64,000 bases of DNA from Clostridiales bacterium (GTDB lineage Bacteria; Bacillota; Clostridia; Christensenellales; Aristaeellaceae). How positions within the stretch are numbered: the stretch's first letter is position 1; each line of letters starts with the position of its first letter. The position numbers and the translations under genes are program-made. A model generated the notes under the pieces. The model worked only from the letters and a program-made list of their open reading frames with translations. It searched no databases and had not been told where the DNA came from. Location: contig JAIKWZ010000019.1 of assembly GCA_024684375.1 (NCBI GenBank), positions 164,356 to 228,355 of the forward strand, given 5' to 3'. Shown here in pieces: positions 3,319-30,009 of this stretch.

Positions 3319-4170
3319 TCATTCTGAATAAAATGAAGTATCTTCTTTCACCTTCTTCAAAAACACTTCTGCTGCTTCCTGCATAGGAGCAAAGTCGAAT
3401 TCGTTTACCTTAAGCATGGAAATACACTTTATAATGTTCTCCTGCACTGTTTGCATCATGCATTTATCCCAATCTGGGACAAATGCATTGCTTAAGAACC
3501 GTATCACAGCTTCCCGGCCATCCAGCTCACGCCACTGATTTTCCTTTGCCTGTCCCAGGAAAACCACCCGGTTTACCCGGAATCGGTGATTCAAGCTTCT
3601 GCCCGACGATCCGCAAAAGGGCGTTGGTTCGAAGATTACACCATCTTCCGAAGGTGTCACCAGGGCGAAATCTCCGTTGATTATGATTGCATCACAATGC
3701 TTTTCAAGCAGTTTTGCCAGCGTCGTTTTACCTGTTCCGCTTGGTGCGGAACAAATAATGACCTCATTCCCGCACACTAATGTTACACCATGCAGACCAA
3801 AGCACTTTTGATAAAGTGCTGTCATCAGACCATATTGGATCCCAAGGCGTATTTTTTTTTCAGAATAGTTATCGACGTTAACCTTTATTTCATCCTTAGA
3901 CAAAGATTCTATGGCAAATAGAACCCTTTCATGTTGAGAATACACTGCTTGCCATCGTTCATGACTCCTTCTGAGAAACCATCCATTTTGTGTCCTTTCG
4001 TAGTCCCCGAAAGCACTTTTTTCAAGATTAATGGTGATCGTTTCAGAAGGTGACTGGAGCGTCTGGGCCTTGCCTATCCATTGTCCAGGAAAAAACTTGG
4101 AAATATCGCTGTCAGCAATAATTCGGCAAGTGTATTTTCCGCAAGAAAACCAATAGATTATGGGCACCAT
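3319..4170 (-). CDS. HPr-kinase/phosphorylase-like (HprK-like) ATPase
   Basis: Walker A CSAPSGTGKTTLAKLL and HprK-like C-terminal layout; located between putative precursor genes. Confidence 0.7.
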   Translation of the reverse strand: MVPIIYWFSCGKYTCRIIADSDISKFFPGQWIGKAQTLQSPSETITINLEKSAFGDYERTQNGWFLRRSHERWQAVYSQHERVLFAIESLSKDEIKVNVDNYSEKKIRLGIQYGLMTALYQKCFGLHGVTLVCGNEVIICSAPSGTGKTTLAKLLEKHCDAIIINGDFALVTPSEDGVIFEPTPFCGSSGRSLNHRFRVNRVVFLGQAKENQWRELDGREAVIRFLSNAFVPDWDKCMMQTVQENIIKCISMLKVNEFDFAPMQEAAEVFLKKVKEDTSFYSE

Positions 4171-4179
4171 CCTGCGTCA

Positions 4180-4392
4180 TTAACACCATGTATCATAAGC
4201 AGCAGTACCAGGCAGATAATTGCACCAATTATCTGTGTCTTCTGGATCTCGTGCACCGTAAGTTTCGCGGCAGCCGGCACAGTTCTGGTTGTTGTCAGGG
4301 TTGCCATTCTTGGTGGTATACCCCAATGATGCAATCATGGTGTCCGGAGCGAAGGAATCAACAATCAGTTCCGGGGCTTCGTACTTCTTCAT
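4180..4392 (-). CDS. Candidate Cys-containing RiPP precursor (70 aa)
   Basis: MKKYEAPELIVDSFAPDTMIASLG leader-like segment then NCAGC...NWC...DTWC C-terminus; SD upstream; directly downstream of radical SAM gene. Confidence 0.65.
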   Translation of the reverse strand: MKKYEAPELIVDSFAPDTMIASLGYTTKNGNPDNNQNCAGCRETYGARDPEDTDNWCNYLPGTAAYDTWC

Positions 4393-4435
4393 AAGTTATA
4401 TCTCCTTTCGATATTCCGTGTCCGGGCTTACTGCC

Positions 4436-5587
4436 TCAGGCACATGTAGGATCAGTTGGGATATCAGTCACTTCATGCCGGGCTCGGTACAGCCGCAGCA
4501 GGTAGGTGTACTGACAAGTGTATGGGTCAGGCTCGTGGGGCGAGCCCGTGCCTTCGTACCTACGCGCAGTGCAGTTTTGCAGGCAATCATTTTTCATGCT
4601 GCAAGCCTGACACACCGCAGGACGGCGAAAGGTCTCCTGAAATTGGTCTTTCAGCTGTGCCCATGCAGCTTCAAAACCGATTTCAAAAGGTTTTGCACAA
4701 CAATAACCATTCATCGAAATGCATGATTCCATATCTCCATTCCAATAGATGGCGCTGCTTACCATAGAACCAATACATACATCTGTTTCAGAGGGGAGCG
4801 CCTCTGCTGGCGCTTTGGGCATTTGGAAGTGTTTCAGTTCTTGTTCCAGTTCTTTGGCATTTTCCAAGGCCAGCGTTGCTTCCTCCGGCGGATGACAGGC
4901 GATGCAGGCCCGTTCAGCCGGGGTTAAGCGGCATTGCAGCGCGTCCGAAAAAGACGGATTATGCCGATGCCTGGTAATGTCTGTTATCAGCGTGTATGGA
5001 ATACCCAGCCCCTGACATAGCTTCCCTACTTTGAGATAATCCAGCGCGTTCTGTCGGATCATCGTAAAGTTCAATCCCACATTCACACGGATGGACTGCA
5101 AGAAGCGTATGTTCTCCATCACCTTATCTAAACCCCGCGGATCGCCGGTAACAGCAGCGTATGTCTCATTGCTGCCTCCGTATAGGGTTATGTCTACATT
5201 CGCGGGCGGATACCGCCGGAAAACTTCACGGATAGAGTCCGTATACGCTCCGGCGTTGCTCATAATCGTAATGCGGAAACCCATCAGCGCCAGCTGCTCA
5301 TACAGCTGCTCGAACCCCGGATACTGGGTGCATTCGCCGCCGGTCAGCGTCAGATACAGCACGCCGGCGTCCCGCATCTGCCTGGCCATATCCAGCCATT
5401 CTTCTACCGTGCGCAGCCTGCCGTACGGCGCTGCCTGCGAATCCGTCATACGGACGTAGCACATCCGGCAGCGGAAATTGCAGCGGTATGTAAGTTCCAT
5501 CGTGCAGCTCAGCGGCCTGCGCTGTTTTATTGCCTGCAGTTGGATCCGGTCAGTGACCTTTGTAAGGTCCCAGCGTTTTTCGATCAT
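4436..5587 (-). CDS. Radical SAM / SPASM-domain peptide maturase
   Basis: CNFRCRMC (CxxxCxxC) and C-terminal SPASM-like Cys cluster CQACSMKNDCLQNC...C. Confidence 0.88.
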   Translation of the reverse strand: MIEKRWDLTKVTDRIQLQAIKQRRPLSCTMELTYRCNFRCRMCYVRMTDSQAAPYGRLRTVEEWLDMARQMRDAGVLYLTLTGGECTQYPGFEQLYEQLALMGFRITIMSNAGAYTDSIREVFRRYPPANVDITLYGGSNETYAAVTGDPRGLDKVMENIRFLQSIRVNVGLNFTMIRQNALDYLKVGKLCQGLGIPYTLITDITRHRHNPSFSDALQCRLTPAERACIACHPPEEATLALENAKELEQELKHFQMPKAPAEALPSETDVCIGSMVSSAIYWNGDMESCISMNGYCCAKPFEIGFEAAWAQLKDQFQETFRRPAVCQACSMKNDCLQNCTARRYEGTGSPHEPDPYTCQYTYLLRLYRARHEVTDIPTDPTCA

Positions 5588-5850
5588 TCGGTTATCAACG
5601 ATCTTTCACGTAAGCTTGTGAGGAAAGCGTCCACATCTTTTTCGGCAGTCTCCGCGTCTACCTCGTACTCCTTCATCAGGCTGTCAAGCAGCTCGCTCTT
5701 CTCCGCGCCCGTCTCAAGCAGTTTCCACAAAAACGCGCCGGTTTCATTAAGGCTCATTATCTGGTTCGGAACATAGTTCTCGCTGCCTATCCCGATTACT
5801 AGGTATGTATCCATAACCTGGCGGACCACATAGCCGGTCTTTATTTTCAT
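5584..5850 (-). CDS. PqqD-like RiPP recognition element protein
   Basis: 88 aa with PqqD-like layout (SLNETGAFLWKLLETGAEKSELLDSLMKEYEVDAETAEKDVDAFLTSLRERSLI); start overlaps neighbouring genes. Confidence 0.8.
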   Translation of the reverse strand: MKIKTGYVVRQVMDTYLVIGIGSENYVPNQIMSLNETGAFLWKLLETGAEKSELLDSLMKEYEVDAETAEKDVDAFLTSLRERSLITE

Positions 5851-6365
5851 CAGGTCGTTCCTTTCTGCCCGGAAGGCTGTCTGTTACGGAAAGGTCTGCA
5901 GAGTATCCGAACCAGCTTCCATAAGTATATACGAGGAAATGTCAGCGCTGTCACCGTCAAAGCATAACCTTTTATAAAAACGTTTTTGCACGATAGCCTG
6001 CGGCCGTTACGGTCGATCGAAACGACTGTACCGAGTATCTGATCGTACGGCAAATCCTTTTCAAAATGCCATTGGTGATCGCCGGCCATGACAAACCCGT
6101 GCCTTCGTTTCCATATCACGCGGTGCAGCGCGTAACGCCTGTCACGTCTGTCGAAAAGCACGATGTCTCCCACCCGGACCTTTTCTGGCGGTATGATCAC
6201 CACACCGTCCCTGAGATGATGCAGCAGCGGCCACATGCTCATGCCAGTTACCCGAACATACGCATGCCCGGTCTCGGAAAGGGTCTGGCGAATCAACGAA
6301 AAGTACTTTTCCGTAGGAAGAATCTGTACTTTATTTGATTTATTCAAGTTCGTCTCTTCACCCAT
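5850..6365 (-). CDS. S24/S26-family signal-peptidase-like protein
   Basis: VTGMSMWPLL (Ser motif) and DIVLFDRRDRRYALHRVI (S26B-like His motif); C-terminal hydrophobic segment. Confidence 0.75.
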   Translation of the reverse strand: MGEETNLNKSNKVQILPTEKYFSLIRQTLSETGHAYVRVTGMSMWPLLHHLRDGVVIIPPEKVRVGDIVLFDRRDRRYALHRVIWKRRHGFVMAGDHQWHFEKDLPYDQILGTVVSIDRNGRRLSCKNVFIKGYALTVTALTFPRIYLWKLVRILCRPFRNRQPSGQKGTT

Positions 6366-9994: not shown

Positions 9995-11086
9995 TCAGTT
10001 GTCCTCCTTGAATAAGAATTCCGCAATCGCGGCAGAATTCGCTTCTTTATCCACAATATGGCCTTTCGCGCCTGCTATAATATCGTATTCCTGCGTGGCC
10101 TCCAGAGGAAGAACCATGTAATCCAGAGACTGCGAATCGAAAATGTTGACACCCTGCTTGGAAGCTTCGTATGCAACGCGCGCCAAAGCAAGGGATATCG
10201 AACGTATATCCTCCTCAGGCAAATTGTTGTACGACTTCCTGAAGATCGGGTCTATCTGTTCACGGATAAACGCATAGTCTTCTTCTGTAACGTCATCCAG
10301 ATTTATCAGCCGCTGACCGTTCAGATCGCCTTCCGGAACGCCGGTCTCGTTTGTATAGAAAGCAATCTTCTTGGAAATCGTCGCGCCGCAGCTTTTGAAA
10401 AGCCCGGCAATAACTTCCACTTCACGCTCACAGCAATTGTATACCGAGTCATACTGAAGCCAGCCAAACCCGACAGCCTGCAGTCCGTTCAGATGAGTGT
10501 CCGGGCCAAACTCCGTCAGGTAGTACTCCTCAGCCAGCATATCGATGACTGCCTGAGCCAGCAAACCGCTTCCTACGTTCGCTATAAGCTGGTTCTTTTT
10601 GGAACCCACCATCCCGTTAAGGGCATTGCGTTCGGCGCGGGAAACATCAACGTCGATCCCACCGTAATCATCGATCATTTCGGCGAGATTCAGATAGTTG
10701 AGCGACAGAAAATACTTGATGTTCGTACCAAAGTTGTAATTGAACACCTTCATAGCCTCTTCCGGCCCATTATTGCGGTAAGGCATGTCCAGCATCTGAG
10801 GAACATCGTATCCTTCATAATCTATGAAAGTATCCCAGGTGAACATAAGCAGCCTGATTTTGCCGCTCTCAGGGTTCATCGATACAACCATCAGAGTATT
10901 TCCTGCATTACCCTTGTCGTTGTTCATGCCTTCATTGCAAATCAGCAGGAAATCCACCCAGCTATCGGACACAGCACTCTCTTCTGCAACTGCAAATGAC
11001 GGCAGGAAGCAGAGCACAAGCGCTATGGCGATGAGTTTTATCAGTCCTCGAATCGAATGGAGATTATGAATACTGGTTCTATTCAT
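9995..11086 (-). CDS. LytR-CpsA-Psr (LCP) family-like protein, likely catalytically degenerate
   Basis: LCP layout (GNTLMVVSMNPESGKIRLLMFTWDTF...FNYNFGTNIKYFLSLNYLNLAEMIDDYGGIDVDV...HLNGLQAVGFGWLQYDSVYNCCEREVEVI); ATG at 11086 fits SD AAGGAGG (11097-11103) better than ORF-track TTG at 11092. Confidence 0.75.
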   Translation of the reverse strand: MNRTSIHNLHSIRGLIKLIAIALVLCFLPSFAVAEESAVSDSWVDFLLICNEGMNNDKGNAGNTLMVVSMNPESGKIRLLMFTWDTFIDYEGYDVPQMLDMPYRNNGPEEAMKVFNYNFGTNIKYFLSLNYLNLAEMIDDYGGIDVDVSRAERNALNGMVGSKKNQLIANVGSGLLAQAVIDMLAEEYYLTEFGPDTHLNGLQAVGFGWLQYDSVYNCCEREVEVIAGLFKSCGATISKKIAFYTNETGVPEGDLNGQRLINLDDVTEEDYAFIREQIDPIFRKSYNNLPEEDIRSISLALARVAYEASKQGVNIFDSQSLDYMVLPLEATQEYDIIAGAKGHIVDKEANSAAIAEFLFKEDN

Positions 11087-11101
11087 AGTCAAAGCCCTCC
11101 T

Positions 11102-14100
11102 TTACTGCTTTTCTGCAGATACGGCATTGCGATCCTTGTCGTATTTGTTAGTAATGACGAGGATCCCGTCCGCTGTGTAGTAGCCGTTCCAACCCGCCAC
11201 GCCTTCTGTGTTGTTGGTCAGCTTGTTGTATCTGTCGAGATAACGCTCGGAGATCAGCCTGCCTTCGCTGTCATAGCCGCGTTCAACGCTGGAATAGCCT
11301 TCAGCGCAATTTACGCGAGCTTTGACGCTGTCATAGTAGCCTTCCCAGGTAATGTTACCGTTTTCGTCAAGTTCATATTCGAATATGGCGTAGCCATCAG
11401 TCGTTACGACCGGTTTGCCCGATTCGTCCAGGAAGGTCACTTCATGCACGCGTGTCACAGGGTAGTAGATCTGACTGATACCCCATGCGCCGTTAACGGC
11501 AGCACAGCGCTCACCACTCTCATCCAAGTAGCAGCAGAAGTACTTCTCAACTGTACTGGAGTTGCTAAGATCATATTCATATACAACACTTGCGTAACCG
11601 TTTACAGTCTTTGCAGGATTACCGTCCGCATCAAGCCATGTCTCCTTTACAAGCTTGGCAAACGACGAGTATTCATAGCGTATACCGCAGACGCCGTTCA
11701 CAGCGAATGGAACATCGTTTTCATCATAATAGAGTTCCTTGGTGACCTGACCGCGACTGTTGTATTCCCTGGTTACGGTATTGCATCCCTCTGCCCCTAT
11801 TGCCGCATTGTCCTGCGCGTCCACGTATTTGGCCTTTATCGGATTGCCATATCGGTCATAAGTCTGCACAGAAGCAATGTAAGCGTCCTTATCCACTGTC
11901 TCGTCCATGAGCCGCATCACATAAGTATGATCCTCTTCATTCTCAGAGACGATCACGCGTCTGCTGTAACCGTTTACTGCCATTGGCTTAAGGCTGCTGT
12001 CCAGATAGCTTTCTTCAGCTATATGGCCGCTTTCCGTATAGGATATGTAATGGGCAGCATAGCCGTCTTTGCAGGGAGCATATTCGTTAATCTCATCAAA
12101 GAACTCCTCGCTGATAAGGCGACCTTCTTTGTCATAATCCATGACGGCATAAGCATAAGGCAGGCTCTGCGGCTTCACTCCCAGGGATTCGGCATCGAGA
12201 TATTTCTCCGAAGTCATATTCCCCAATTCGTCATACGTGTACACTGCTTTGGCATAGCCCAAAATGGTGTCGGTCAGTTCTCCGTCAGTATCGAAGTAAG
12301 CTTCTTCAGTCACATCGCCTAAAGCGTTGTACGCAGTCGTTTTCCTGGCGTATCCCTGAAGATTCGACTTCGGTTTACCTGCCTTATCAAAGAAGCTGAC
12401 AGACGTTTCGCGTCCGGCCAAATCATATGTATACCTGAGTTCAGAGTAGTCGTTTGCATAAGCCGTTGGATTTCCGGCTATGTCATAGTACTTGACTGAA
12501 AGGATGCGTCCATCCGCATCTACCTTCCGGCTAAGAGAGGAGTAACGGCCGGAAGTGTGGATCGCCGGCTGTCCCTTGGTGTTGAGCAGTCTTTCTTCTA
12601 CGCAGTAATTACGCCCGTCGTACTTGAGCACGACCTCGCTGTAACCGTATTGGCACCAGGTAAGGGCGCCTTTAGCGTTGTAATAAGACTGTCTCGTTAC
12701 ATTGTTGCTGTTGTCGTACTCATAAACAATAGTAGAGTATCCGCTGCTGAGTATCGCGGGCTGGCCGTCTTCCTTAAGGAACTCGCGTTTCACCAGGCGC
12801 TGACGGGCATCCCATGTATTGCGCAAAACAGCATAGCCGCCGGAACACAGCACAGGGTTATTCTCCCCGTCCAGATATGTCTCGGTCAGGATATCGCCAT
12901 TCTTATCCACCGTACGCAGTATGGCAGCATAGCCGGCGCTTATATAAGTACTCTCATACTTGTCATCCAGATAAGTTATGCTTATCAGATTCAAGTTCTC
13001 ATCGTACAGGTTTTCTTCCGCAGCGTAGCCATCCTTGAACAGTGTTGGCTGTCCAAAAGTGTTAACGTAAGTGGTACGCCATACCTTACCCTGATCGCTG
13101 TACTCAAAACGTTTTCCGGAATAACCGGCAGAGATCATGGTGTTAAGTCCGCTCGTGTTCAGGTAATCCTCGCTGACCCTGCGGTCCTGCGCGTCGTAAG
13201 CGTAAATGATCGAGGCATACCCAAACTGGGTCTCAACAGGCTGCATTCCGGCGTTCAGATAGTCGATACGCAGCAGATTGCCGCGCGCGTCGTAAAGCCT
13301 GTGAGTCGAAGGAGCTCTCTCAGTCAGCGAGGCAATGCGCTCGTGCTCGTCGAGATACTGTTCAAGTATCACATGCCCATACTGATCATATTCTCTTTGC
13401 CATACGCTGAAGCCTTCAGGCAGACGGACAAGTTTGTCACCTTCGTCCAGATAACGGACCTGCAGCTTACGCCCGGCATTGTCGTAGAGATACTCGATAG
13501 CGGAATATCCAAGTTTGACCGTCACGCGGTTCATGGCTTCGTCAAGGTATATCTCCTTGGTGCAGCGGCCACGGCCATCATATTCGTATTCCGCGGCGGC
13601 ATAACCGCCCTCCGTCATTGTGACGCTGCCGTTTGCGTACCAGGCAGAACGGATAATGTTGCCGGCTGTGTCACGTTCATAGGTAACTCGGTCATATCCG
13701 TCCGGCAAGACAGCCGGGATCCCGTCTGCGCTGAACCAGGCTTTTTCCGTGCAACGTCCGTTGACATCCAACTGATAGGTTATATAACTGTATCCGCCGT
13801 CCTGGAGAATGTACTCCCCGTCGGCCCCATAATACGCTTCGCCGGTCATGAAGCCATGGGAATTCCAGGTCTGAACCTTTCGGGCATACCCGGAGGTCTG
13901 CACGATCAGTTTGCCGGAGGCGTCAAAGTATTCTTCAGAAAGCATATGGGCAACGTCGTCATAAACGCAGACTTTCTGTGCGAAACCCTTGGAGGAAACG
14001 ACCTGAGAACCGTCTGTTCCGTAATAGGTTTCTGTCAGAATGTCGCCGCGCCCGTCGTATGTGAATTCCACAGCCGCATAATCACCGCGAAGCATGTATA

Positions 14101-16954
14101 GATCGCCGTTTTCGTCGAAATAACGCTCACTCAGAAGCTGATCTTTTTCATCATATTCACGAACGATCTCAGCAGCGCCGGCGTTTACGCTGGTTATCTG
14201 CCCGTCTGAACCATAGTACACTTCACGTATCAGATTTCCTCTTAGATCATACTCACATTCGAAAGACGCATACCCATCCGGACACTCGGTTGGCATGCCG
14301 TTCGCATCAAAGTATGATTCTGTCAGCATCTGTCCTTCCGTGTCCCAGGTATACACAACGCTGTGGTAGCCATCATGGACCATGGCAGGCTGCCCAGTTG
14401 CATCAAAATAACTCTCGCTCAAGACATAGCCCGCATGATTTTTGACCGTTTTGCTGATCGCATAGCCAAATGAAGTATCTACCGGCTGACGGTCGGCTCC
14501 GAGATAAGTCAAAGTCTCTGTATCGTTCTCGTCATCGTATACCGTGCTCTTGACGGCATATTTGTCACGGTTGACCTTAAGACTGCCATCCGCTTCGTAA
14601 TACGCTTCTTCACACACGCGGTTATGCTCATCCAGCTTTCTTTCAAACCACGCATATCCGGCAGAAGCCGGCACGACTGGTTTGCCTGTTTCGTCATAAT
14701 ACGCGCGTCTTAATAGATTTCCGGAAATATCATACGCCGATTCGTAAGACGCATAGCCGGCTGCCAGCAGCACGGGATTCCCTTCCGTATCCAGATATTC
14801 GACCTTTGTATTAATGCCGGTGACAGGGTCATACTCCATCCTGCGTGCGGAATATCCCTGGCTAATCAGCGTAGGTTCAAGATCGGCGCCGAAGTTTGCC
14901 TCATATACCATATGATGCTTAGCGTCATATTCTCTCTCTACCCTGGCACTGCCGGACACAAGAGCGGGCTTATCTTCCGCATTCATATAGTTGATAACTA
15001 TGATGTTGCCGTGTGAATCATATTCGTATGTGACAGACGCGTAACCGGCGGCCTGAGCTAAAGCCGTGCCGTCGGCACCGAAGAACTTTTCACCGGTATG
15101 ATGGTTAGCGTAGTCATAGGAATGCACCTGAACCGCGCCCTGACCGCCGTTTGAGACAAGCTTGCCCTCAGCGTCGAACGTAGCCTGCCACAGCAGTCTG
15201 CCGTTACGGTCATACTCCCTTTGCATAGCGGAAACGCCGAGCCTGTCATCACAAGGGTTCCCGTTTACATCATAGTAGCGCACTGATGTCTGCAGCAGTT
15301 TCCCATCAAAGCCATAAACAACGCGATGCGCGCCGTTGGAAGTATTTGTGTCTTTAGCTCCTTCTGCGGTAAAAAACGCTTCCTCAAACAGCAGATCCTG
15401 CTTCGGACCGCCGTAAACCATGCTCCTGGCATAAGACCCGCTCAGGGATTCGCAGGGAATGCCGTTTTCATCGAAGTACGCCTCATATACTGCAGGTTCT
15501 GCCGGATCCGTCCCCTTATATTCATATTTTACGCTTGCCAGCTGGCGTTCATTGTTTCTTACAGGCAGCCATTTATCGCTCATGTATACCGTGCTCGACA
15601 CCTGATGGTTTTCGTTATATTCGTTGACGATACCCGCATATCCGGCTTTGATCTGTATGAGCTCCATATCGGTACCGAAGAAACGCTCACGTTCTACAGC
15701 TGTAGGATTAATTACCCACAGTTCCTGCCCGTCATCGTCGATTGACCTCTCTCTATGGTACCTGTATTCATGGCGGGCAAATCCGCCGTTGGACATGGTA
15801 TACTCGTCAACGACGTCGTAGTACGTTTCACGGTAATCGAAGTCTTCGCCGTCATATTCCCTTTCTTCCATGGAAACATGCGTTGTGGTCATCGTACGGT
15901 TGCCGTCGGCGCCGAAATAGCGCAGATAATGCACTCGATCGGAATCGCCATAGTATTCATAGGTCAGCTTGGCGTACCCGTTGATCATTTTTATAAGCTG
16001 GCCTTCTCTTCCCAAATAATCGGTTTCAATCACTCGATCCAGCTCATCGTAAACATTGATGATGGAGGCGTAACCTTTATCGGAAATAATCGGCTCGTCA
16101 TCCACGTCAAAATAGTCTACCCTGATAAGGTTGTCCCTTTCATCATAGGTATTGACCATGGTATGCCAACGGCCGGAGCCAAGGGATTTACTGCCGTCCT
16201 GAGCATAGATCTTTGTGGATTGGAGTTTCCATTTTTTAACTGTGTCGTCCCTGCGTGTTCCGGGATCCTCCTGCATGCCTTCCATGCTCTGTTCGATCTC
16301 TTCGTCAATGGGTTTGGCAGTATTTGTCGTATATACCGATACAACAACAGCGCCCCCCTCCGTTCCGATCAGAGGAGTCCCGTCAGCGTCAAGATAACGC
16401 TTGGTGACAGTTTTAGTGTCCCCATTTATATCGACATCGCATATGATTTGAGCGAATCCTCCGACCGGCCGTACCAGGTTGCCCTTTGCATCAAAGTATT
16501 CACTTGAAAGGATCTGGTCTCCGTCCCAGGCATCCCGGCGGAAACTGTAGCTCCCGGGGATCTCAGCGCGGCTGCCGTCAACGGCGTATCGGTCTTCTGT
16601 CAGCGTATAGCTTCTGCCGTTAGACTGCTTTCCGTAAGTATATTCCGCATAAGCATATCCGCCATCCGAAATGACAGGTTCGCCGCTCAGGCCAAAGAAC
16701 GCTTCTGTCAGCAGATTGCCATAGGCATCCCACGTATATTCCGCCCTGGCAAACCCTCTGCTGTTCAGAGCAGGCGCTCCGTTCAGGTTATGAGCCGTTT
16801 CGCTTATCAGGTTTCCCTGCGCATCCCAGACACAATCCGTTTGCGTAAACTCCGGCATGGACAGCGTCTTTGCGCTTTCGGCCTGTGCTGCAGTTAATGC
16901 CACCGACAAAGCTATGGCAAACAACAATACAACCCATTTATTCACTTGTCTCAC
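11102..16954 (-). CDS. Giant secreted tandem-repeat protein (about 1,950 aa; YD/RHS-like repeats of about 32-33 aa)
   Basis: GTG at 16954 preceded by GGAGG (16963-16967) gives signal peptide VRQVNKWVVLLFAIALSVALTAAQAES; the ORF-track ATG at 17020 overlaps the upstream gene. Consensus about Y-x-YD-xx-GN-xxx-E-x-Y-x-D-x-x-G-x-P-V-xxxx-GYA repeated through the protein. Confidence 0.88.
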   Translation of the reverse strand: MRQVNKWVVLLFAIALSVALTAAQAESAKTLSMPEFTQTDCVWDAQGNLISETAHNLNGAPALNSRGFARAEYTWDAYGNLLTEAFFGLSGEPVISDGGYAYAEYTYGKQSNGRSYTLTEDRYAVDGSRAEIPGSYSFRRDAWDGDQILSSEYFDAKGNLVRPVGGFAQIICDVDINGDTKTVTKRYLDADGTPLIGTEGGAVVVSVYTTNTAKPIDEEIEQSMEGMQEDPGTRRDDTVKKWKLQSTKIYAQDGSKSLGSGRWHTMVNTYDERDNLIRVDYFDVDDEPIISDKGYASIINVYDELDRVIETDYLGREGQLIKMINGYAKLTYEYYGDSDRVHYLRYFGADGNRTMTTTHVSMEEREYDGEDFDYRETYYDVVDEYTMSNGGFARHEYRYHRERSIDDDGQELWVINPTAVERERFFGTDMELIQIKAGYAGIVNEYNENHQVSSTVYMSDKWLPVRNNERQLASVKYEYKGTDPAEPAVYEAYFDENGIPCESLSGSYARSMVYGGPKQDLLFEEAFFTAEGAKDTNTSNGAHRVVYGFDGKLLQTSVRYYDVNGNPCDDRLGVSAMQREYDRNGRLLWQATFDAEGKLVSNGGQGAVQVHSYDYANHHTGEKFFGADGTALAQAAGYASVTYEYDSHGNIIVINYMNAEDKPALVSGSARVEREYDAKHHMVYEANFGADLEPTLISQGYSARRMEYDPVTGINTKVEYLDTEGNPVLLAAGYASYESAYDISGNLLRRAYYDETGKPVVPASAGYAWFERKLDEHNRVCEEAYYEADGSLKVNRDKYAVKSTVYDDENDTETLTYLGADRQPVDTSFGYAISKTVKNHAGYVLSESYFDATGQPAMVHDGYHSVVYTWDTEGQMLTESYFDANGMPTECPDGYASFECEYDLRGNLIREVYYGSDGQITSVNAGAAEIVREYDEKDQLLSERYFDENGDLYMLRGDYAAVEFTYDGRGDILTETYYGTDGSQVVSSKGFAQKVCVYDDVAHMLSEEYFDASGKLIVQTSGYARKVQTWNSHGFMTGEAYYGADGEYILQDGGYSYITYQLDVNGRCTEKAWFSADGIPAVLPDGYDRVTYERDTAGNIIRSAWYANGSVTMTEGGYAAAEYEYDGRGRCTKEIYLDEAMNRVTVKLGYSAIEYLYDNAGRKLQVRYLDEGDKLVRLPEGFSVWQREYDQYGHVILEQYLDEHERIASLTERAPSTHRLYDARGNLLRIDYLNAGMQPVETQFGYASIIYAYDAQDRRVSEDYLNTSGLNTMISAGYSGKRFEYSDQGKVWRTTYVNTFGQPTLFKDGYAAEENLYDENLNLISITYLDDKYESTYISAGYAAILRTVDKNGDILTETYLDGENNPVLCSGGYAVLRNTWDARQRLVKREFLKEDGQPAILSSGYSTIVYEYDNSNNVTRQSYYNAKGALTWCQYGYSEVVLKYDGRNYCVEERLLNTKGQPAIHTSGRYSSLSRKVDADGRILSVKYYDIAGNPTAYANDYSELRYTYDLAGRETSVSFFDKAGKPKSNLQGYARKTTAYNALGDVTEEAYFDTDGELTDTILGYAKAVYTYDELGNMTSEKYLDAESLGVKPQSLPYAYAVMDYDKEGRLISEEFFDEINEYAPCKDGYAAHYISYTESGHIAEESYLDSSLKPMAVNGYSRRVIVSENEEDHTYVMRLMDETVDKDAYIASVQTYDRYGNPIKAKYVDAQDNAAIGAEGCNTVTREYNSRGQVTKELYYDENDVPFAVNGVCGIRYEYSSFAKLVKETWLDADGNPAKTVNGYASVVYEYDLSNSSTVEKYFCCYLDESGERCAAVNGAWGISQIYYPVTRVHEVTFLDESGKPVVTTDGYAIFEYELDENGNITWEGYYDSVKARVNCAEGYSSVERGYDSEGRLISERYLDRYNKLTNNTEGVAGWNGYYTADGILVITNKYDKDRNAVSAEKQ

Positions 16955-16967
16955 AGCGCGCTCCTCC

Positions 16968-18422
16968 CTATTTCTTCTTGCTCTTCCGGCGATTGGATCC
17001 CTCTGTCTTCCTGGTGTCATAATTGCGATAGTACTTATTATAATACCTGTAATAACCGTAACGGCCGGAATGTTCTATTTTTTCACCATAGAATACAAAG
17101 CCCAGAACATCGAGGCCAGCCATCTCCGCCTGATTCAGCGCCTTCTGTATCTCGCGATGATCTGAAAAGTTCTGGCGAACCACGAAAAGCCCGCCCGCGA
17201 CCTCGGCGGATAAGGCCAATGCGTCCGCGACTATGTTTATCGGCGGCACATCCAGGATGATTATATCGTATGCTTTCTCAAGCTGGAGGAATAATTCATG
17301 CATCGCATTCGAACCCAGCATTTCCGTCGGATTCGGCGGTGTTCGTCCGGCCGGCAATATATCTAAAGTACTGTAATCAGTCGTCAGCACAGTGCTTTCC
17401 CATTTATTGAATCCGGCCAATACTTCAGAAAGGCCGCTGGATTTAGCCTTATAATTGAATATGCTGTTCTGGCAGGACCTTCGCACGTCGGCATCGATCA
17501 GCAAAACATGCTTATCGCTTAAGGCAAGGGATATTGCCAGGTTAGCAGCGATTGTCGATTTTCCTTCGCCTGATACCGCGCTGGTAACAACAACAGAATG
17601 TTTATCCTTGCCTGCCAGCACATAAAGCAGGTTCATTCGCAGTTTCGCATATTCCTCAACCTGATCTATCGGAGCGTTATTGTTGAGGCGGAACGCGCTG
17701 CGTTCCTTATTGTCATCACCGACGATACGCCTTAGTGATGAGAGCACCGGCGGAGTATATTTTTCTTTCAACTCCTTTGTATCGTGCACTTTATTATTCA
17801 GGAAGAAGAAAATCAGCAGGATCCCTCCGGCGATCGCAGCGCCCGCAAACGCGCCGATCATGAACCCGTTTGAAGATGCATACCTGTCCGGCGAAAAAGG
17901 AACCGTTGCATAGTCAATGATTTCAATACTTCCGGCGCTTACCACACGGATGATTTCAGCCGGCGCTACATCCAGAACGGCATTGCAGATGTCAGCAGAT
18001 TTCTGAGGTTGATTCGTTCTGCAGCTCACCCTCACTACGCCCGTTTCAGACACTGAACCCATAGAAAGAGTCGCGCCGATATATGCAGGTGTTATGCCCG
18101 GGTACTTAGCAGACAGCCTCTCGGCTATAACGTCGAGCACCTTGTTGCTTCTCACAACGACCATATATGTATCCAACAGCTGAACGGCGCTGTTCAGGTC
18201 AGAAGAACTCGTGTAGCCGTAATTGATAAGGTTCGGATTGCCGTTGTATACGTACATCGTGCCGGAAGCCGTGTAAGTATCTGCTTTAGTCTCCGGAGCA
18301 TTAAAATATACATATGCCACGCCTATCGCTGCGCATAACACTATAAGCCAGCAGCGCTTAAGGACGTACTTTAACAATTTGAAAAGATCAACGCTTGCCT
18401 CGCGGTTTCTTACATAGGCCAT
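16968..18422 (-). CDS. Fused Wzz/CpsC-like and CpsD-like BY-kinase
   Basis: Wzz-type N-terminus with two TM segments; VVVTSAVSGEGKSTIAANLA Walker A, VLLIDADVRR, IIILDVPP; C-terminal tyrosine cluster YGYYRYYNKYYRNYD. Confidence 0.9.
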   Translation of the reverse strand: MAYVRNREASVDLFKLLKYVLKRCWLIVLCAAIGVAYVYFNAPETKADTYTASGTMYVYNGNPNLINYGYTSSSDLNSAVQLLDTYMVVVRSNKVLDVIAERLSAKYPGITPAYIGATLSMGSVSETGVVRVSCRTNQPQKSADICNAVLDVAPAEIIRVVSAGSIEIIDYATVPFSPDRYASSNGFMIGAFAGAAIAGGILLIFFFLNNKVHDTKELKEKYTPPVLSSLRRIVGDDNKERSAFRLNNNAPIDQVEEYAKLRMNLLYVLAGKDKHSVVVTSAVSGEGKSTIAANLAISLALSDKHVLLIDADVRRSCQNSIFNYKAKSSGLSEVLAGFNKWESTVLTTDYSTLDILPAGRTPPNPTEMLGSNAMHELFLQLEKAYDIIILDVPPINIVADALALSAEVAGGLFVVRQNFSDHREIQKALNQAEMAGLDVLGFVFYGEKIEHSGRYGYYRYYNKYYRNYDTRKTEGSNRRKSKKK

Positions 18423-18576: not shown

Positions 18577-18605
18577 ATTATACGTATGCGCAATACACAA
18601 GTCAA
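18577..18605 (-). promoter_or_regulatory. Sigma-A-type promoter for the BY-kinase/repeat/LCP operon
   Basis: Minus strand TTGACT (18605-18600), 17-nt spacer, TATAAT (18582-18577). Confidence 0.7.
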
Positions 18606-18650
18606 ACGTTTTTTCACGATAATTGAACTTATCATAGAATAATTATTTAA

Positions 18651-18675
18651 AAAAACGGCACTGATGTGCCGTTTT
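18651..18675. terminator. Terminator downstream of sigma-factor gene
   Basis: AAAAACGGCAC (18651-18661) TGAT GTGCCGTTTTT (18666-18675); U-run on the minus strand. Confidence 0.8.
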
Positions 18676-18820
18676 TAAGACAGTTCATTCAGCCTGTCAG
18701 ACGTTTGCTTTATGGACAAATGATTATTTGCTTCTCGGATCGGTTCGGCAGCGCCCGTAACCTCAGTATTCCGCCGGCAGCCGCTGCCCTGTTTCGCCTT
18801 CTCCTGCCGCGGGCATCCTC

Positions 18821-19300
18821 TTATCCCATATACTGTCTGAGTGCAGACAGCGCTTTCTGGTGTCGGATCTTGACTGCGCCGTAGCTCAGGTTCATCAGCC
18901 GCGCGATCTCGGTCATTGGTTTCTTATCGTAATAAAGCATTACGATTATGTCCCGCTGTTCCTGATCCAGTCTGTTCAGCGCGTCCGCCAGTTCGTCAAG
19001 CGTCTCCCTTTCCAGCATGGGCGTTTCCACAGACATGTCCGACGGTATTTCTTCGCTGATCTCCTCCGAAGGCCTGAACTTTCGGAAATGGTCTATCAGA
19101 GTGTTTCGGGTTATCGTAAAGATCCAGGTGCTCACGGATGCCTTAGTCTCGTCAAAATCGTTGATTCTCCGTAAAACCTTTTCAAAGACATCCTCGCACA
19201 GATCCTCGGCTTCAGCCCGTCGCTGCACCCGGGTCATGATGTATCTCATCACTTTGCCGCTGTACGTGGCGTAGATCTTTCCCACATCAGGAGAAGTCAT
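18821..19300 (-). CDS. ECF-type sigma-70 family RNA polymerase sigma factor
   Basis: Sigma region 2 (AEDLCEDVFEKVLRRINDFDETKASVSTWIFTITRNTLIDHFRK) and region 4 (LDQEQRDIIVMLYYDKKPMTEIARLMNLSYGAVKIRHQKALSALR). Confidence 0.9.
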   Translation of the reverse strand: MTSPDVGKIYATYSGKVMRYIMTRVQRRAEAEDLCEDVFEKVLRRINDFDETKASVSTWIFTITRNTLIDHFRKFRPSEEISEEIPSDMSVETPMLERETLDELADALNRLDQEQRDIIVMLYYDKKPMTEIARLMNLSYGAVKIRHQKALSALRQYMG

Positions 19301-19487
19301 TTTCTTGCTTGGGTGTTTTTTGCTTTAATGCTGTTTCCGGCTGCCCCGCCGCCGCCACGAGCTCCGCTTCGTCGTCAGTCAGCTGCCGCGCGGCGTAACG
19401 AGCGTGCACTCTGTCAATAACCGCCTGCAGCTTGTCGCTCTTTTCATAATCCTGAAAATCGAAGAATAAACTAAGCTTTTTCTCCAA
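19287..19487 (-). CDS. Small hypothetical protein coupled to the sigma factor
   Basis: TTG at 19487 with AAAGGAGG upstream gives MEKKLSLFFDFQDYEKSDKLQAVIDRVHARYAARQLTDDEAELVAAAGQPETALKQKTPKQENDFS; overlaps sigma start by 14 nt. Confidence 0.6.
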   Translation of the reverse strand: MEKKLSLFFDFQDYEKSDKLQAVIDRVHARYAARQLTDDEAELVAAAGQPETALKQKTPKQENDFS

Positions 19488-19722
19488 ACTGCTCCTCCTT
19501 TCTATCCATTGTGAAGTGCTTTTTTGAAGTACTTCCTGATTATATACGTGCATTCTGATAAGATGGCAGCTGTTCCGCAAAGATCGTCAGTGTATTTCCG
19601 GGGCCTCAGACCCATGCGGTCATCTTATACATATATTCTATCACAAACGCTTCCGACTGTCTATGGCAGTAACTAACGCGTCATCGCGCATCAGCGTGAG
19701 AGTACCGGCTTCGGCAGCTCGT

Positions 19723-22700
19723 TTACGGCGAACCGGTATCACTTGTTGAGAGCTTTACCACCATCGTGCATCCGCTGGCCGCAGACAGGTCGTAATTGCC
19801 GCTTGAACCGCTGGTTACGGATCTTTCAGGCGCAGGTATGGTATATGTACCCGGTTCCGAACCGGTACCGTTCACTTTGACAGTTATCACGTCGCCTGTA
19901 AACAATCTGTACCTAAGTGTCCAGACCCCACCGGAAACCTGTCCTTCGTCTATAGGATTTATCTGCCTTCCGAAATAATGCTCGTCTCCGCCCAGGTAGC
20001 TCACTTTGACGTCCGGGAAAAACGTCTCACCCTCAGACCACGAAACCTCATAGCCGGACAGCGCGACTTTTATCCTGAGCTTCTCTACCGTAAGGCTGCC
20101 GTCCACTGTCTTAACATTCGTAAAATAGGATGTCACATTATTTTCTTCCGCGTCCCAGATCGTATATTGGGATATATGGCTCGCGCTTGTCCCGGCATTG
20201 GTCTGGCTCCCCGTAACACCTCCTATCGTAACAAAGAAGTCGTCGCTGGGAAGTCCTGAATATGTGTAATCTTCTTCATCTCCAACGATAGGCGTGCCGT
20301 CGTAGTCCTTGCTCTGGGAACCAAGAGTGATAGTGACCTGAGTTGTATTTTTGCTCACCGTAAGCGTACCCAGCTGCTCGTTTACAGTGTAGTTCGCGCT
20401 GTTTGTACTGCCCCAGTTTATGGTATAGGTGTTTGAAGTACTGCCGACATTGGTTATCGTGCCTTTCGCGGTAACGGTCGCTGTGTCATACCCCTTAAGC
20501 CCGGTAAGCTCCGCCCCGTCAGTCTTGGTCAGCGCGGTGCCGTCATACATTTTACTCGCTGAGCCGGTCTTCACAGTCAGCTGAGCCTTGGATATCGTTA
20601 CAGTGCAGCCTGATACCGTTATATCGTAGTTGCCCGTTGTTCCGCTTACGGAACAGGTCGGATTATATGTATGTTCACCCACACCGGGGCCGCACATGGG
20701 TCCTCTGACGGTAAGCGTATCTCCCGTATTCAATTTATAATAATACAAGTGATAATTGCCGTCCGCACCGGCGTCTGTCAAACTCAGCGTTGCGCCGCTG
20801 GAAGGGCCGTTTGCGTAAGCTACGGTAGAAGACGCCCATACCCCTGATCCCATATACTCGATCGTCCTGGATTGTGCTGAAACCGTGATACGGAGCGGTT
20901 CGACAGTAAGCGTGCCTTTGTTTTTCGTAAGGTTGGTCAGTTTTGAAGTCACATCCTCCGAGCCGTAGAAGAATTTGCACTCGCTTACGACATTGTCGCT
21001 GCTGCCAGCGTTCGTCTGGCTGCCCGTGACGGCGATCGAATACGTAAACCATGACGGCGCTCCGCTTACGGTATAACCGTTTTCGGTAAGCGCGGTGCCG
21101 TCATACACCTTGCTGGCGGATTTGGCGGTGACCGTTATCGGAGCAGAGTAATCAGGCGTGACTTCGAGCGTGCCAAGAGATGGCGTGACAGTATAATTGC
21201 CTGAGCTGACGCCGCCCCAGTTTATTGAGTAAGTGTTGGCTGTACTGCCCGGATTTGTTATGGTGCCCGTCGCGGTGACGGTCACCTTGTCCGTGTCTGT
21301 TGCGGCAAGTCCCAAGCCGCCAAACGTGACGCTGCTGTTTGTCAGCGGCGTTCCGTCATAGACCTTCGAGCCGGAGCCCGTTGTGATCGTCAGCGGTCTT
21401 GGATCCACCTTGAAAGATCCGTTTGTTATGCTGGCGCTGTAGTTGGAGGACAGTGTGTCTGAGAAAATATCTACCTCGGATAGATAACCGGTCAGCGTAT
21501 GAGTTCCGGCCTGCGCATTGTATCCGGAGATAGACAGCCCAAACCCTTCGCCTTCCACAGGGGAATTATATACGTAGAGCGCACTGTTAACATTTTCTGA
21601 TGTTCCGTTAAACTGACGGCTCCTGTACGAGATCGTTTCACCCGCGACGACCAGCGTGGGCTCCGGCCAGATTGTAAATATAGAAGGAGGAACGCTCCCC
21701 GAGTATGTCATGTACGCGTTATCGCCGATTGTGAATTTGAGCTGCAGCGGCGTGACCTCAAGCGTTCCAAGTTTTTCCGTGATCGTATAGTTTTCCTCGG
21801 AAGCATCATCCCATTCTATAGTATAGGTGTTCTGCGATTTTCCTGCATTTTTTCTTTTGCCCGTAGCAGTCACGCTGACTCTCATTTGATCTTCGGCTGA
21901 CAGCCCTGTTACACTTTTGATCCCGGCTGTCAAGTCTGTACCGTCGTACACCTTGCTGGCGGAATCTGTGACAATAGTGAGCTGAGCAGGCTTAACTATC
22001 AGTTTGCCGAGAGTCTCAGATGAAATGTAGTAGTTCTCCGGGTTCGTCTTGCCCCAGGATATATCGTAGGTGTTCTCGGTGCTTCCTACGTTGATTATGC
22101 TGCCATCGGGCTTAACAGTTATTTTGTCATTGCCCTTCAGACCGCTTACGCTTGCTTTGTTGGATTTAAGCTCTGTCCCGTCATAATTCCTGCTTGCGGA
22201 GCCTGTCTTGATGGTGATAGGCGCGGGTTCGACATACACGGGAAATGTCTTTAAAGCGGAGCCCGAGAACTCAAAGTTGGATGAAGATCCCGATACGCTT
22301 ACAGCGCCTTTTAAGTTATAATTGCCTACATTGGTTCCGGCGCCTTTCATGGTAACACGAACGGTATCCCCGGTAAAGAGTTCAAATTCAAATACCGCTC
22401 CTTTGGTGTCGACGCGCTTTCCCTTTACTTTCGAGCCTGAGTGTTCACCGTTCAGGAATGTAAGGGTAGGAGTCGGCGCGGCGGCGGTCCCTGAGTAAAC
22501 GAGGGTAATGTCATCCGGAACATCGATCCTGACTTTCAGCGGCTCAACTTTTAGAGAGCCCAGATCCGCGCTGATCTTGTAGTTGCTTTCTTTCGCGTTT
22601 GTCCATTTGACGGAATAGCCGTTGCTGGTTTTGCCCGCGTTTTTGATCCGGCCAGTTGAAGAAACATCCGCTTTCTCACCGTCAACGAAACCTGTAATTG

Positions 22701-24795
22701 TCGCCTTACTGTTAGAAAGATTCTTTCCGTTATACACCCTGCTGGCAGATCCTGTCGTGACCTTAAGCGTTGCAGGGTTTATTTTAAGAGTGCCCGCCAC
22801 GAGCTTGAGATCCGGATAGTATTCCGTAACATCTTCTCCGTTTTCGTCGAAAACCTGATATCCTGTGACCCTGCTGCTGACAGTGCCGGCATCCGTCGCT
22901 TTTCCTGCCACTTTCGCGGTCAGAGTATAACCTTTTGCAAGCCCGGTAACAGTCACGCCTTTCGCGTTAAGAGGCTTGCCGTCATAGACTTTCGTTGCCG
23001 ATCGCGCGGTCACTGTGACATCGGTCAAAGCGGGAAGCACCTTTAATGTGCCCAAGTCCTCGGTGATAATGAAATTTTTCTGGTTTTCGTTGCCCCAGTC
23101 GATAGTGTAAGTGTTCTTACTTTCGCCTTGCGCAGTTCGGCTGCCGGTAGCTGTCACTTTGACGGAGTCATCTATCCTGACTTCCTTAAATTTAGCTTCT
23201 TGCGCACTAAGCGCCCTGCCGTTATAGTCTGTTATGTCTGAGTCTATGTTTATATGAGCATTTGTGAGCTCGCGCATGAGGCCGCCCGCATATTTTATGC
23301 TTACTGTCAGGCCGTCCTTAACGGTCGTCTCTTCGTCCTTGCTGGGCAGCTGACTGATTCGCTCAAGCACTTTAGCCTTATCCCAGCCGGTGTCCGCGCA
23401 TGCCTGGTCCAGCAGCTCCGGGTTATCCGCGTACAGCCGCAGGATTTGTTTTGGAATCTCGTCCTCACTGATTTTATCTACGCTGAAGGTTATGCTGTCC
23501 GCATCGTTCTCGTCGCTCAGAAGTACAGTCAGCTTTTCGCCCGCAGCCAACACGATCTGGCTGGTCTTACCGGTCAGTGGGTTCGTGCCGTGTACGATCA
23601 GTTCGCCGCTTAAACCGTAGAGGGTCTCTCCTTCCCGCTCGGACAATACCATGGATGTATTGCGCCACGGCTCCTGTTCCGTCTTACCTGAAATCACATT
23701 AAAACCGGCTTCATTGCAAGTCAGCGGTTTGCCGTCATATCTTTTCGTCGCCGAGCCGGTCCATACGGTCATGGGCGCGGGGTCAACGACCAGCTTTCCT
23801 GGAACGGTCTCAATGATGTTGAAGTGACTGGTCACGTTTTCGCCATTTTTATTGTAGATCGCGTAGGAACCGATGGGGTTCTCCACAGTTCCTGCATTGG
23901 TGACGGATCCAACGGCTGACGCGTTGATGTCAAACATTTCCGGAAGGTTATAAACCAGTATATCTCCCGGTCTGGTCAGAGGAGTTCCGTCATACAGTTT
24001 ACTCGCGCTCTGCGCAATAATCATAACCTTGCCGGTAAACTCCCAGTCGCCGTCTGCCGGGAAGTCATAGTCTTCGAACAGCTTGGGGCAAGCCGTCATG
24101 ACTCGCGTTGCCGTATTGTTATCCTCAAATTGATCCTGTAGAAACGGCGTAAGGTTTCTTTTATTTATACCGGCTATAACGGTATCCTGACCTACAACAG
24201 CGATCTGTCCAGCGTGCACTGCAAATTTCTGGCCGTTTTTCTGTGTTACTGCTGCGCTGCCTTCGAGAACCCCGAACACCGTGACTTTTTCACTCGCATT
24301 CGTCGGTGTTTGACGCGGAGTCAGTCCGTATGTTTTTGCCGCCTGCGCCGCGGGAAGGACCGATACAACGGTGATAGTCCCACGGATACCTACGGTCATG
24401 GTTGAGGTCGTTATGTCCAGGCTCTCGTTCTCATCAAGCTTTTCACGGACATCAAGGAAAAGTGTGCCTTCATTCAGCGTCAGCACCATATGGTTATCAT
24501 TCTTTTCGAATTTTACGGTGCTGTTTTGGTCTATTGACAGGATCTTCGTGCTGTCAAGGCTCACGGAAGCGGTAGACTCCGCGCCCGTACGCATAGTCTC
24601 GCCGTTTGCAAAGCGGACGTTTTCCATCACGAAGCGCGGGCTGCCCGATGCATCGAGGATCTCCACATTCCCGTCGTATCTAAGCAGGCGTATTGTTTCT
24701 GCGCTGTAACTGTCTCCCAAAGCATAAGGGAGCAAGAAGAGCACGGCGAATACAACTGCCAAAGCTAAAATGCCTTTTTGCAAACGATGCTCCAA
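19723..24795 (-). CDS. Large secreted FecR-domain protein with MBG/YDG-type repeat modules
   Basis: TTG start with GGAGGAG SD; signal peptide; FecR-like N-terminus (GNVEILDASGSPRFVMENVRFANGETMRTGAESTASVSLDSTKILSIDQNSTVKF); many SASKxYDGTxL...NYTV...LGTLxV modules. Confidence 0.85.
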   Translation of the reverse strand: MEHRLQKGILALAVVFAVLFLLPYALGDSYSAETIRLLRYDGNVEILDASGSPRFVMENVRFANGETMRTGAESTASVSLDSTKILSIDQNSTVKFEKNDNHMVLTLNEGTLFLDVREKLDENESLDITTSTMTVGIRGTITVVSVLPAAQAAKTYGLTPRQTPTNASEKVTVFGVLEGSAAVTQKNGQKFAVHAGQIAVVGQDTVIAGINKRNLTPFLQDQFEDNNTATRVMTACPKLFEDYDFPADGDWEFTGKVMIIAQSASKLYDGTPLTRPGDILVYNLPEMFDINASAVGSVTNAGTVENPIGSYAIYNKNGENVTSHFNIIETVPGKLVVDPAPMTVWTGSATKRYDGKPLTCNEAGFNVISGKTEQEPWRNTSMVLSEREGETLYGLSGELIVHGTNPLTGKTSQIVLAAGEKLTVLLSDENDADSITFSVDKISEDEIPKQILRLYADNPELLDQACADTGWDKAKVLERISQLPSKDEETTVKDGLTVSIKYAGGLMRELTNAHINIDSDITDYNGRALSAQEAKFKEVRIDDSVKVTATGSRTAQGESKNTYTIDWGNENQKNFIITEDLGTLKVLPALTDVTVTARSATKVYDGKPLNAKGVTVTGLAKGYTLTAKVAGKATDAGTVSSRVTGYQVFDENGEDVTEYYPDLKLVAGTLKINPATLKVTTGSASRVYNGKNLSNSKATITGFVDGEKADVSSTGRIKNAGKTSNGYSVKWTNAKESNYKISADLGSLKVEPLKVRIDVPDDITLVYSGTAAAPTPTLTFLNGEHSGSKVKGKRVDTKGAVFEFELFTGDTVRVTMKGAGTNVGNYNLKGAVSVSGSSSNFEFSGSALKTFPVYVEPAPITIKTGSASRNYDGTELKSNKASVSGLKGNDKITVKPDGSIINVGSTENTYDISWGKTNPENYYISSETLGKLIVKPAQLTIVTDSASKVYDGTDLTAGIKSVTGLSAEDQMRVSVTATGKRKNAGKSQNTYTIEWDDASEENYTITEKLGTLEVTPLQLKFTIGDNAYMTYSGSVPPSIFTIWPEPTLVVAGETISYRSRQFNGTSENVNSALYVYNSPVEGEGFGLSISGYNAQAGTHTLTGYLSEVDIFSDTLSSNYSASITNGSFKVDPRPLTITTGSGSKVYDGTPLTNSSVTFGGLGLAATDTDKVTVTATGTITNPGSTANTYSINWGGVSSGNYTVTPSLGTLEVTPDYSAPITVTAKSASKVYDGTALTENGYTVSGAPSWFTYSIAVTGSQTNAGSSDNVVSECKFFYGSEDVTSKLTNLTKNKGTLTVEPLRITVSAQSRTIEYMGSGVWASSTVAYANGPSSGATLSLTDAGADGNYHLYYYKLNTGDTLTVRGPMCGPGVGEHTYNPTCSVSGTTGNYDITVSGCTVTISKAQLTVKTGSASKMYDGTALTKTDGAELTGLKGYDTATVTAKGTITNVGSTSNTYTINWGSTNSANYTVNEQLGTLTVSKNTTQVTITLGSQSKDYDGTPIVGDEEDYTYSGLPSDDFFVTIGGVTGSQTNAGTSASHISQYTIWDAEENNVTSYFTNVKTVDGSLTVEKLRIKVALSGYEVSWSEGETFFPDVKVSYLGGDEHYFGRQINPIDEGQVSGGVWTLRYRLFTGDVITVKVNGTGSEPGTYTIPAPERSVTSGSSGNYDLSAASGCTMVVKLSTSDTGSP

Positions 24796-29200: not shown

Positions 29201-29749
29201 TCAATCATTCGCAACCACGTATTCTACCCAGGTGGAGATCGTCTGTTTGTCAAATCTGAACTCCACTTTCATCCTGTGTTTTCTGCGTTCGACTTTTAAA
29301 ATCCGGGCATCGGTTCCCAAGTCGCTGTTCGAAGCCAGCGAAAGAATACCGTCAGCTTCATTTACAGCGGTCTTGCCCAGCACTCCGTTATTCTTCAGCA
29401 GCATCATCGCGAAAGCAAGATCATTGCCCGCGAGCCTGAAACCGTTTTTTTCGTCTCCCAACAGCTTTAACACGTTCGGAACACTCCGGCGTATGGTCGT
29501 ATCGATTTCATCATCCGTAAATATAAAAACATAACCCGGCAAGAGTTTATGCACCAGATCGATCATTTTGCCGTCTTTGAAAGTATGCTGGATCTGTTTG
29601 GGGCAAAACGCTGTCCCGCCATAGAGTTGGCAGGCCATTTTTGCAACATCGTCCGAAAACTGGCTGCGGCAAAAAACACAGTAAACATTCGTCGCGCTTA
29701 ACGCCTGTTCATTAGCCCTGTCTTCGCTCATGCATAGCCTCACGTTCAT
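29201..29749 (-). CDS. NusG-paralogue transcription elongation/antitermination protein (LoaP-like)
   Basis: NGN-domain-like VYCVFCRSQFSDDVAKMACQLYGGTAFCPKQIQ...LLPGYVFIFTDDE and C-terminal KOW-like segment. Confidence 0.75.
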   Translation of the reverse strand: MNVRLCMSEDRANEQALSATNVYCVFCRSQFSDDVAKMACQLYGGTAFCPKQIQHTFKDGKMIDLVHKLLPGYVFIFTDDEIDTTIRRSVPNVLKLLGDEKNGFRLAGNDLAFAMMLLKNNGVLGKTAVNEADGILSLASNSDLGTDARILKVERRKHRMKVEFRFDKQTISTWVEYVVAND

Positions 29750-29965
29750 TCCAGTTTTGCAATACTTTTAACGCCGATATCTTATCAGTAAGCCGCATGT
29801 TTATCAAGACAATATCTGTAAATATGCCAAATTAACTCAACAGCCAAAAAAGTCCGCCGAACGTCGCAGTTCCGACGGCATCGGCGATCGGCAGCGAGAC
29901 GAGATATTTCGGGGGCTCAGGTCCTTGACATGTGTGTTTTTTTGTGGCATTCTTAATAATGGAAA

Positions 29966-30009
29966 AGGTGTATGTTTTTTTGTTTTGACGGTCGATCAAT
30001 CATACACCT
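29966..30009 (+). promoter_or_regulatory. Leader inverted repeat upstream of glycan-export operon
   Basis: AGGTGTATG (29966-29974) and CATACACCT (30001-30009), perfect 9-bp arms, 26-nt loop. Confidence 0.5.

Follow-up and report, generated by a model that had tools for sequence, protein, structure and literature searches.

A conserved operon of BY-kinase, giant repeat protein and degenerate LCP-fold protein as a probable front end of Wzx/Wzy-type exopolysaccharide pathways in Clostridia

Wzx/Wzy capsule and exopolysaccharide (EPS) loci of Firmicutes, of the CapAB/Cps2A-D type, combine a Wzz protein and BY-kinase, a family whose role is established, with an LCP-fold gene, a priming sugar transferase, glycosyltransferases (GTs), Wzy and a flippase; a LoaP-like antiterminator and horizontal exchange of the locus are further features (PMC12220298). 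The operon described here resembles these loci but departs from them in carrying a 1,950-aa secreted repeat protein (REP) between kinase and LCP, in the loss of the LCP active site, and in a front end which is separable from the synthesis genes. Its LCP-like protein likewise has the fold, and the place in a polysaccharide operon, of the transferases TagT/U/V, Cps2A and LcpA (PMC7831098), although catalytic Arg and Asp have given way to Trp, Cys, Val and Asn in 37/37 orthologues and the N-terminus resembles a putative signal peptide with a cleavage site more than a simple membrane anchor. With its tandem beta-hairpin repeats, YD..G motifs and predicted continuous sheet, REP recalls the YD-repeat shells of Rhs proteins, teneurins and Tc toxins (PDB 7PQ5, 8QJA, 6FB3), from which it differs in its period of 32 aa, its low global superposition, its Sec signal peptide, and the absence of a PxxxxDPxG autoprotease, toxin, plug or PAAR. 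Its local fold is also akin to the single-layer beta-sheets of MORN-repeat proteins and OspA. Such sheets are known elsewhere, as in Borrelia OspA and giant-virus MORN proteins, and we know of no link between them and EPS operons. Within the open-licence literature we found neither an Rhs/YD protein in an EPS operon nor an LCP pseudoenzyme.

The three genes form a real, conserved and horizontally shared unit, and capsule assembly is not known to involve either a giant secreted repeat protein of fixed length such as REP or an LCP with lost catalytic residues. A conserved gene order, linkage to EPS genes, an intact kinase, a frozen beta-type array and the loss of LCP residues together suggest to us that the operon is probably the front end, regulatory and extracytoplasmic, of a Wzx/Wzy-type EPS pathway. 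Its features within the window (the whole stretch of 64,000 nucleotides analysed) are collected in Table 1, the kinase gene being followed by those for REP and the LCP-fold protein, all on the minus strand.

Table 1. Features of the three-gene operon and its upstream signals, in window positions.
Feature	Position	Strand	Remarks
Wzz/BY-kinase gene (single-chain polysaccharide co-polymerase and tyrosine autokinase), 484 aa	18422..16968	-	Walker A, A', B and Tyr-rich tail kept
REP, giant secreted repeat protein, 1,950 aa, GTG start	11102..16954	-	Signal peptide and ~60 repeats of 32 aa
Degenerate LCP-fold protein, 363 aa, putative AxA-type signal peptide	9995..11086	-	LCP fold; most active-site Arg/Asp replaced
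Operon promoter, sigma-70-type, TTGACT-17 nt-TATAAT	18577..18605	-	11/12 consensus matches
Terminator-like hairpin and T run, AAAAACGGCAC-ATCA-GTGCCGTTTTTTT	18649..18676	-	Read by eye; absent from scan output

The listed reading frame of REP begins at 17020, within the kinase gene; the GTG at 16954, preceded by GGAGG and separated from the kinase stop by 13 nt, is its likely start. The LCP-like gene likely starts at the ATG at 11086, leaving a gap of 15 nt to the stop of the repeat gene, immediately 3' of which stands AGGAGG. The promoter sits 154 nt 5' of the kinase gene, and the hairpin between it and an upstream ECF sigma gene. Promoter-like sites were no commoner in our scan than in shuffled sequence (9 observed, 12.4 expected), and this one is therefore notable only by its score and position; most orthologous kinase genes have an upstream promoter-like site scoring 9-12 of 12. 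An Rfam search of window positions 9,000-30,500 for an RNA element in the leader gave no match. Directly upstream of the operon (18821-24795) lie the ECF sigma factor gene and that of a 1,690-aa secreted FecR/MBG-repeat protein, so that here too a regulator adjoins a giant repeat protein that is secreted.

Orthologues of the LCP-like protein (E <1e-50) occurred in 37 of 300 genomes of the same family and in 12 of the 50 genera sampled, counting the window's own genome. Neighbourhoods were compared in the other 36; these relatives are largely MAGs, mostly of rumen and gut Clostridia. Wherever the full set was recovered (30/30 relatives), kinase, REP and LCP genes kept the same order on one strand, which rules out the REP gene as a random insertion between its neighbours. 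In four of the remaining six (L065, L073, L080, L089) a contig end truncates the REP gene and/or the kinase. The other two, G224 (L082), with REP and LCP but no adjacent kinase and with no signal peptide on REP, and G209 (L066), with LCP but no REP gene and only a distant kinase match, may illustrate how the module decays.

The kinase matches both the Wzz domain (Pfam, E 5e-6) and the BY-kinase domain (TIGR01007, 173 bits against a cut-off of 108), finds its closest PDB match in CapAB, and ends in the Tyr cluster YGYYRYYNKYYRNY. Walker A is kept in 29/30 relatives, and in 28/30 the last 80 residues hold 5-16 Tyr. By sequence it is an intact BY-kinase and PCP-2 polysaccharide co-polymerase, for which autophosphorylation and control of polymer length are predicted. 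It is the sole BY-kinase over the cut-off in its own genome, as represented by an assembly that is 77% complete.

REP carries a signal peptide ending AQA-ES, after which self-comparison (autocorrelation) peaks at 32, 64 and 96 aa. We count 50 strict repeat units which, with gaps of about one unit each, bring the total to roughly 60, and only ~32 aa follow the last of them. The length is 1,953 +/- 13 aa among 31 full orthologues, constant to 0.7%, and a central part of 616 aa is equally long in nearly all of them. Repeats share 61% identity with the orthologous repeat against 26% with other repeats, and 528/540 match best the repeat at the same position in the orthologue. Since the repeats keep positional identity, the array is old and frozen, which suggests that its size and geometry are under selection. 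An AlphaFold2 model of residues 886-1501 (616 of 1,950 residues; pLDDT 91.8) has regular paired strands. In Foldseek, Rhs, teneurin and Tc shells ranked first for this model, with E to 1e-22, but with TM-scores of only ~0.1-0.4 and rmsd >11 A; MORN proteins among viral models matched as well. The modelled local fold thus resembles an Rhs/teneurin/MORN single-layer beta-sheet, its global superposition being poor, and Pfam RHS_repeat reached 18.5 bits, under its cut-off of 22.

Rhs proteins are marked by a PxxxxDPxG motif together with a toxin tail (PMC8765631). The autoprotease motif occurs in 0 of 36 REP sequences, and REP has no variable C-terminal toxin domain. Family searches gave no enzymatic domain in REP and no glycan-binding domain was recognised in it, the REP sequences showed neither a wall anchor nor an LPxTG motif, and no T6SS or PAAR part was seen adjoining the gene. 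A search of the PDB by sequence (phmmer) returned no match, and one by profile returned two, the better of which (E 0.005, to a radical SAM protein) we took as chance. The 32-aa repeat, which no Pfam family describes well, is also present in shorter proteins of other Clostridia (L161, L162, L164, L165, L166, L167). By eye, their N-terminal regions appear TIR-like in L162 and Ser/Thr kinase-like in L164, and their neighbours include an FHA-ABC transporter gene (L165) and Polysacc_synt_2 and DUF6077 genes (L161, L166).

The LCP-like protein scores 48 bits against Pfam LCP (cut-off 24.6), and its fold is assigned by 33 LCP structures matched in Foldseek and an hhalign probability of 99.9. Its orthologues retain only D139 and R262 of the conserved catalytic Arg/Asp set; none of the 37 has R115, D117, R138, R249, R251, D256 or R259, each being replaced or missing, which leaves a single conserved active-site Arg in each orthologue, while 12/12 canonical LCP paralogues keep the whole set. 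R138, which like R249 has become Trp, would by our numbering match correspond to R149, essential in Actinomyces oris LcpA (PMC6381275), and to R118 of the transferase TagT (PMC7831098). The orthologues show 64% mean column identity, with the new invariant residues W84, W209, Q211, C218 and C219, and because conservation is so high despite the lost catalytic residues, the protein counts by known criteria as a pseudoenzyme rather than the product of a decaying gene. As read from the alignment, a hydrophobic stretch followed by an AxA-type cleavage site forms the N-terminus of most orthologues. A plasmid collection searched with this protein yielded distant canonical LCPs only.

In its anatomy the locus is thus much as the earlier note had it: tightly spaced genes (13 and 15 nt) behind a near-consensus promoter, a Wzz/BY-kinase with a C-terminal Tyr cluster, and a secreted protein of ~1,950 aa made almost entirely of repeats. 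The gene order, whose conservation it had put forward as a check, is kept, and the degeneracy it ascribed to the LCP goes beyond what its reader could see, with seven catalytic positions lost throughout the orthologues. The kinase and the LCP-like protein may, as that note suggested, control or anchor REP; in the Lachnospiraceae version, which lacks the LCP, any such part of the LCP cannot be essential.

Linkage to polysaccharide synthesis was gauged in the downstream DNA of the 30 relatives, 5-20 kb each, scanned in all frames with profiles built for this analysis. In 22/30 a priming sugar transferase lies no more than 10 kb away on the same strand, most often together with glycosyltransferases; some EPS gene follows in 24/30, and an antiterminator gene stands within ~0.4 kb after LCP in 18/30. 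Matches to LoaP family NF033641 (52 and 42 bits) fall below the curated cut-off of 125, and we therefore call such genes LoaP-like only; LoaP genes often adjoin polysaccharide operons (PMC12691694). Pfam assignments for examples and for 106 downstream proteins agree (DegT, Bac_transf, GT2, GT4, ATP-grasp). By our estimate, if a 2.9 Mb genome has ~3 priming transferases, chance would place one in a same-strand stretch of 20 kb ~1% of the time. The window's own genome has a same-strand cluster downstream, past the window's left edge, whose Bac_transf gene lies 17.4 kb from the LCP stop and which also holds three GT4, Wzy and Wzx; NHLP-type bacteriocin exporters stand in between. In 6/30 relatives no EPS gene was recognised in the downstream DNA examined (11-20 kb). 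These six, and the distance of the own cluster behind unrelated genes, indicate a detachable module.

The earlier note had remarked that no glycosyltransferases are adjacent. This stands for the immediate flanks but not beyond them, as GT4, Wzt and ABC-2 permease genes lie inside the window at 30.1-35.2 kb and the Wzx/Wzy cluster begins just past its left edge; the missing glycosyltransferases reflect where that edge falls and the fact that the front end has become detached in this lineage. The accompanying proposal of a surface system separate from capsule or EPS is contradicted by the same-strand priming transferases of 22 relatives and by the cluster in the own genome, and the kinase and REP of Lachnospiraceae-labelled genomes sit in the kind of capsule cluster which the note had held to count against it, adjoining DegT, Bac_transf and PglD. 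At 29201-35185, genes for glycosyltransferase, Wzt-like ATPase, Pel9A-like beta-helix protein and ABC-2 permease adjoin a LoaP-like gene and possibly form an ABC-dependent glycan export cluster.

Four Lachnospiraceae-labelled loci carry the kinase (54-56%) and REP (48-53%), and their genomes hold no LCP orthologue at E <1e-30. The LCP is therefore not essential there, which makes it the dispensable part of the module. DegT aminotransferase directly follows REP in 3/3 of these loci whose contig continues, and is itself followed by Bac_transf and PglD in L110 and by PglD in L121. Three more distant proteins with the REP-type repeat adjoin Polysacc_synt_2 genes at three further loci. In an rpoB tree, three Lachnospiraceae-labelled and two Blautia-labelled hosts group in family f58; the REP tree disagrees, the repeat proteins of those hosts nesting inside the copies of family f1. 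The trees argue for horizontal exchange of the module, of the kind seen in capsule loci, with host labels taken from the record titles of MAGs in which mis-binning of single contigs is possible.

As the front end of an EPS pathway, the operon might work as follows. The Wzz/BY-kinase would set EPS polymerisation and chain length by cycling its Tyr tail between phosphorylated and unphosphorylated states, as in Wzc/CapAB. REP, exported by Sec, would fold on the outer face into a Rhs/teneurin-like shell or ribbon of beta type and fixed size and, together with the Wzz loops, provide a scaffold or conduit for the emerging chain, as a monoderm stand-in for OPX or Wzi. The degenerate LCP, presumably unable to cleave the lipid pyrophosphate, would therefore bind glycan on its lipid carrier but not join it to peptidoglycan, so that EPS stays wall-free or passes to REP. 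We infer the scaffold or conduit role of REP and the non-catalytic binding by the LCP from association and anatomy, and for REP it is genetic association that points to glycan. More tentatively, REP may found a new class of monoderm extracellular polysaccharide-assembly protein, a giant beta shell or ribbon of fixed size that would dock on Wzz/BY-kinase and conduct, measure or hold the growing EPS chain, while a pseudoenzyme LCP would bind the polymer on its lipid and leave it unattached to the wall.

Other readings of REP deserve consideration. It could be a surface adhesin or biofilm-matrix scaffold, co-regulated with EPS and binding EPS or the rumen surface, outside polymer assembly; a secreted and repetitive protein without an enzymatic domain, found in gut and rumen MAGs, would suit such a role, and beta-ribbon folds such as teneurin are adhesive (PMC8765631). 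In adhesin arrays copy number and domain are usually variable, whereas REP holds its length and the positional identity of its repeats, on which ground we rejected a variable adhesin array as the simplest reading. Given also the missing wall anchor and a tie that is closest to the kinase, the sole partner kept in Lachnospiraceae, we consider an adhesin unlikely. That REP is a toxin-delivery Rhs protein, whether a polymorphic toxin or a Tc-like shell, and present in EPS loci by coincidence, is barely credible: Rhs and Tc-toxin shells are its best structural matches, but the period of 32 aa, the sub-cut-off RHS_repeat score and the neighbourhood, where T6SS and PAAR were not seen, all speak against it, and we rejected this reading for want of the autoprotease motif and of a toxin tail in the ~32 aa past the last repeat.

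The LCP-like protein, for its part, might still be a ligase whose altered active site uses, for instance, the two invariant Cys or the Arg221 that remains, and which transfers glycan onto REP rather than peptidoglycan. Its strong conservation with new invariant residues and the gene order REP-LCP are compatible with this, as is the precedent of A. oris LcpA, which glycosylates a surface protein (PMC6381275). Trp at the position matching R149 in 37/37, the loss of R249, R251, R259, D256 and D117, and the persistence of REP without LCP in Lachnospiraceae make such a ligase distinctly improbable in our judgement.

To our knowledge, Gram-positive EPS and capsule assembly has no counterpart of the Gram-negative outer parts. 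Should the operon be an EPS front end, REP, being conserved, horizontally spread, of fixed length and tied to a BY-kinase, would be a candidate for a Gram-positive outer part. The conserved pseudo-LCP, if true, would mean that this fold also serves in non-catalytic roles, and would suggest a testable explanation of why some Gram-positive EPS is not ligated to peptidoglycan. In rumen and gut Clostridia, surface polysaccharides can shape adhesion and phage sensitivity.

Two further loci in the window merit mention. A RiPP-like cassette at 3319-6365 encodes HPr-kinase-like (by eye), radical SAM/SPASM, PqqD-like and signal-peptidase-like proteins; a cassette of similar appearance, again by eye, is found in G000 (C32:127912-129813; L177:1913-3814) with an 81-aa GG-leader-like peptide, and NHLP-type bacteriocin exporters lie near RiPP-like cassettes and adjoin the three-gene module in many relatives. 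At 37897-59130 stands a locus for plant-polysaccharide use, with GH31, GH5, GH10, CBM65, DUF5696 and sugar ABC transporters.
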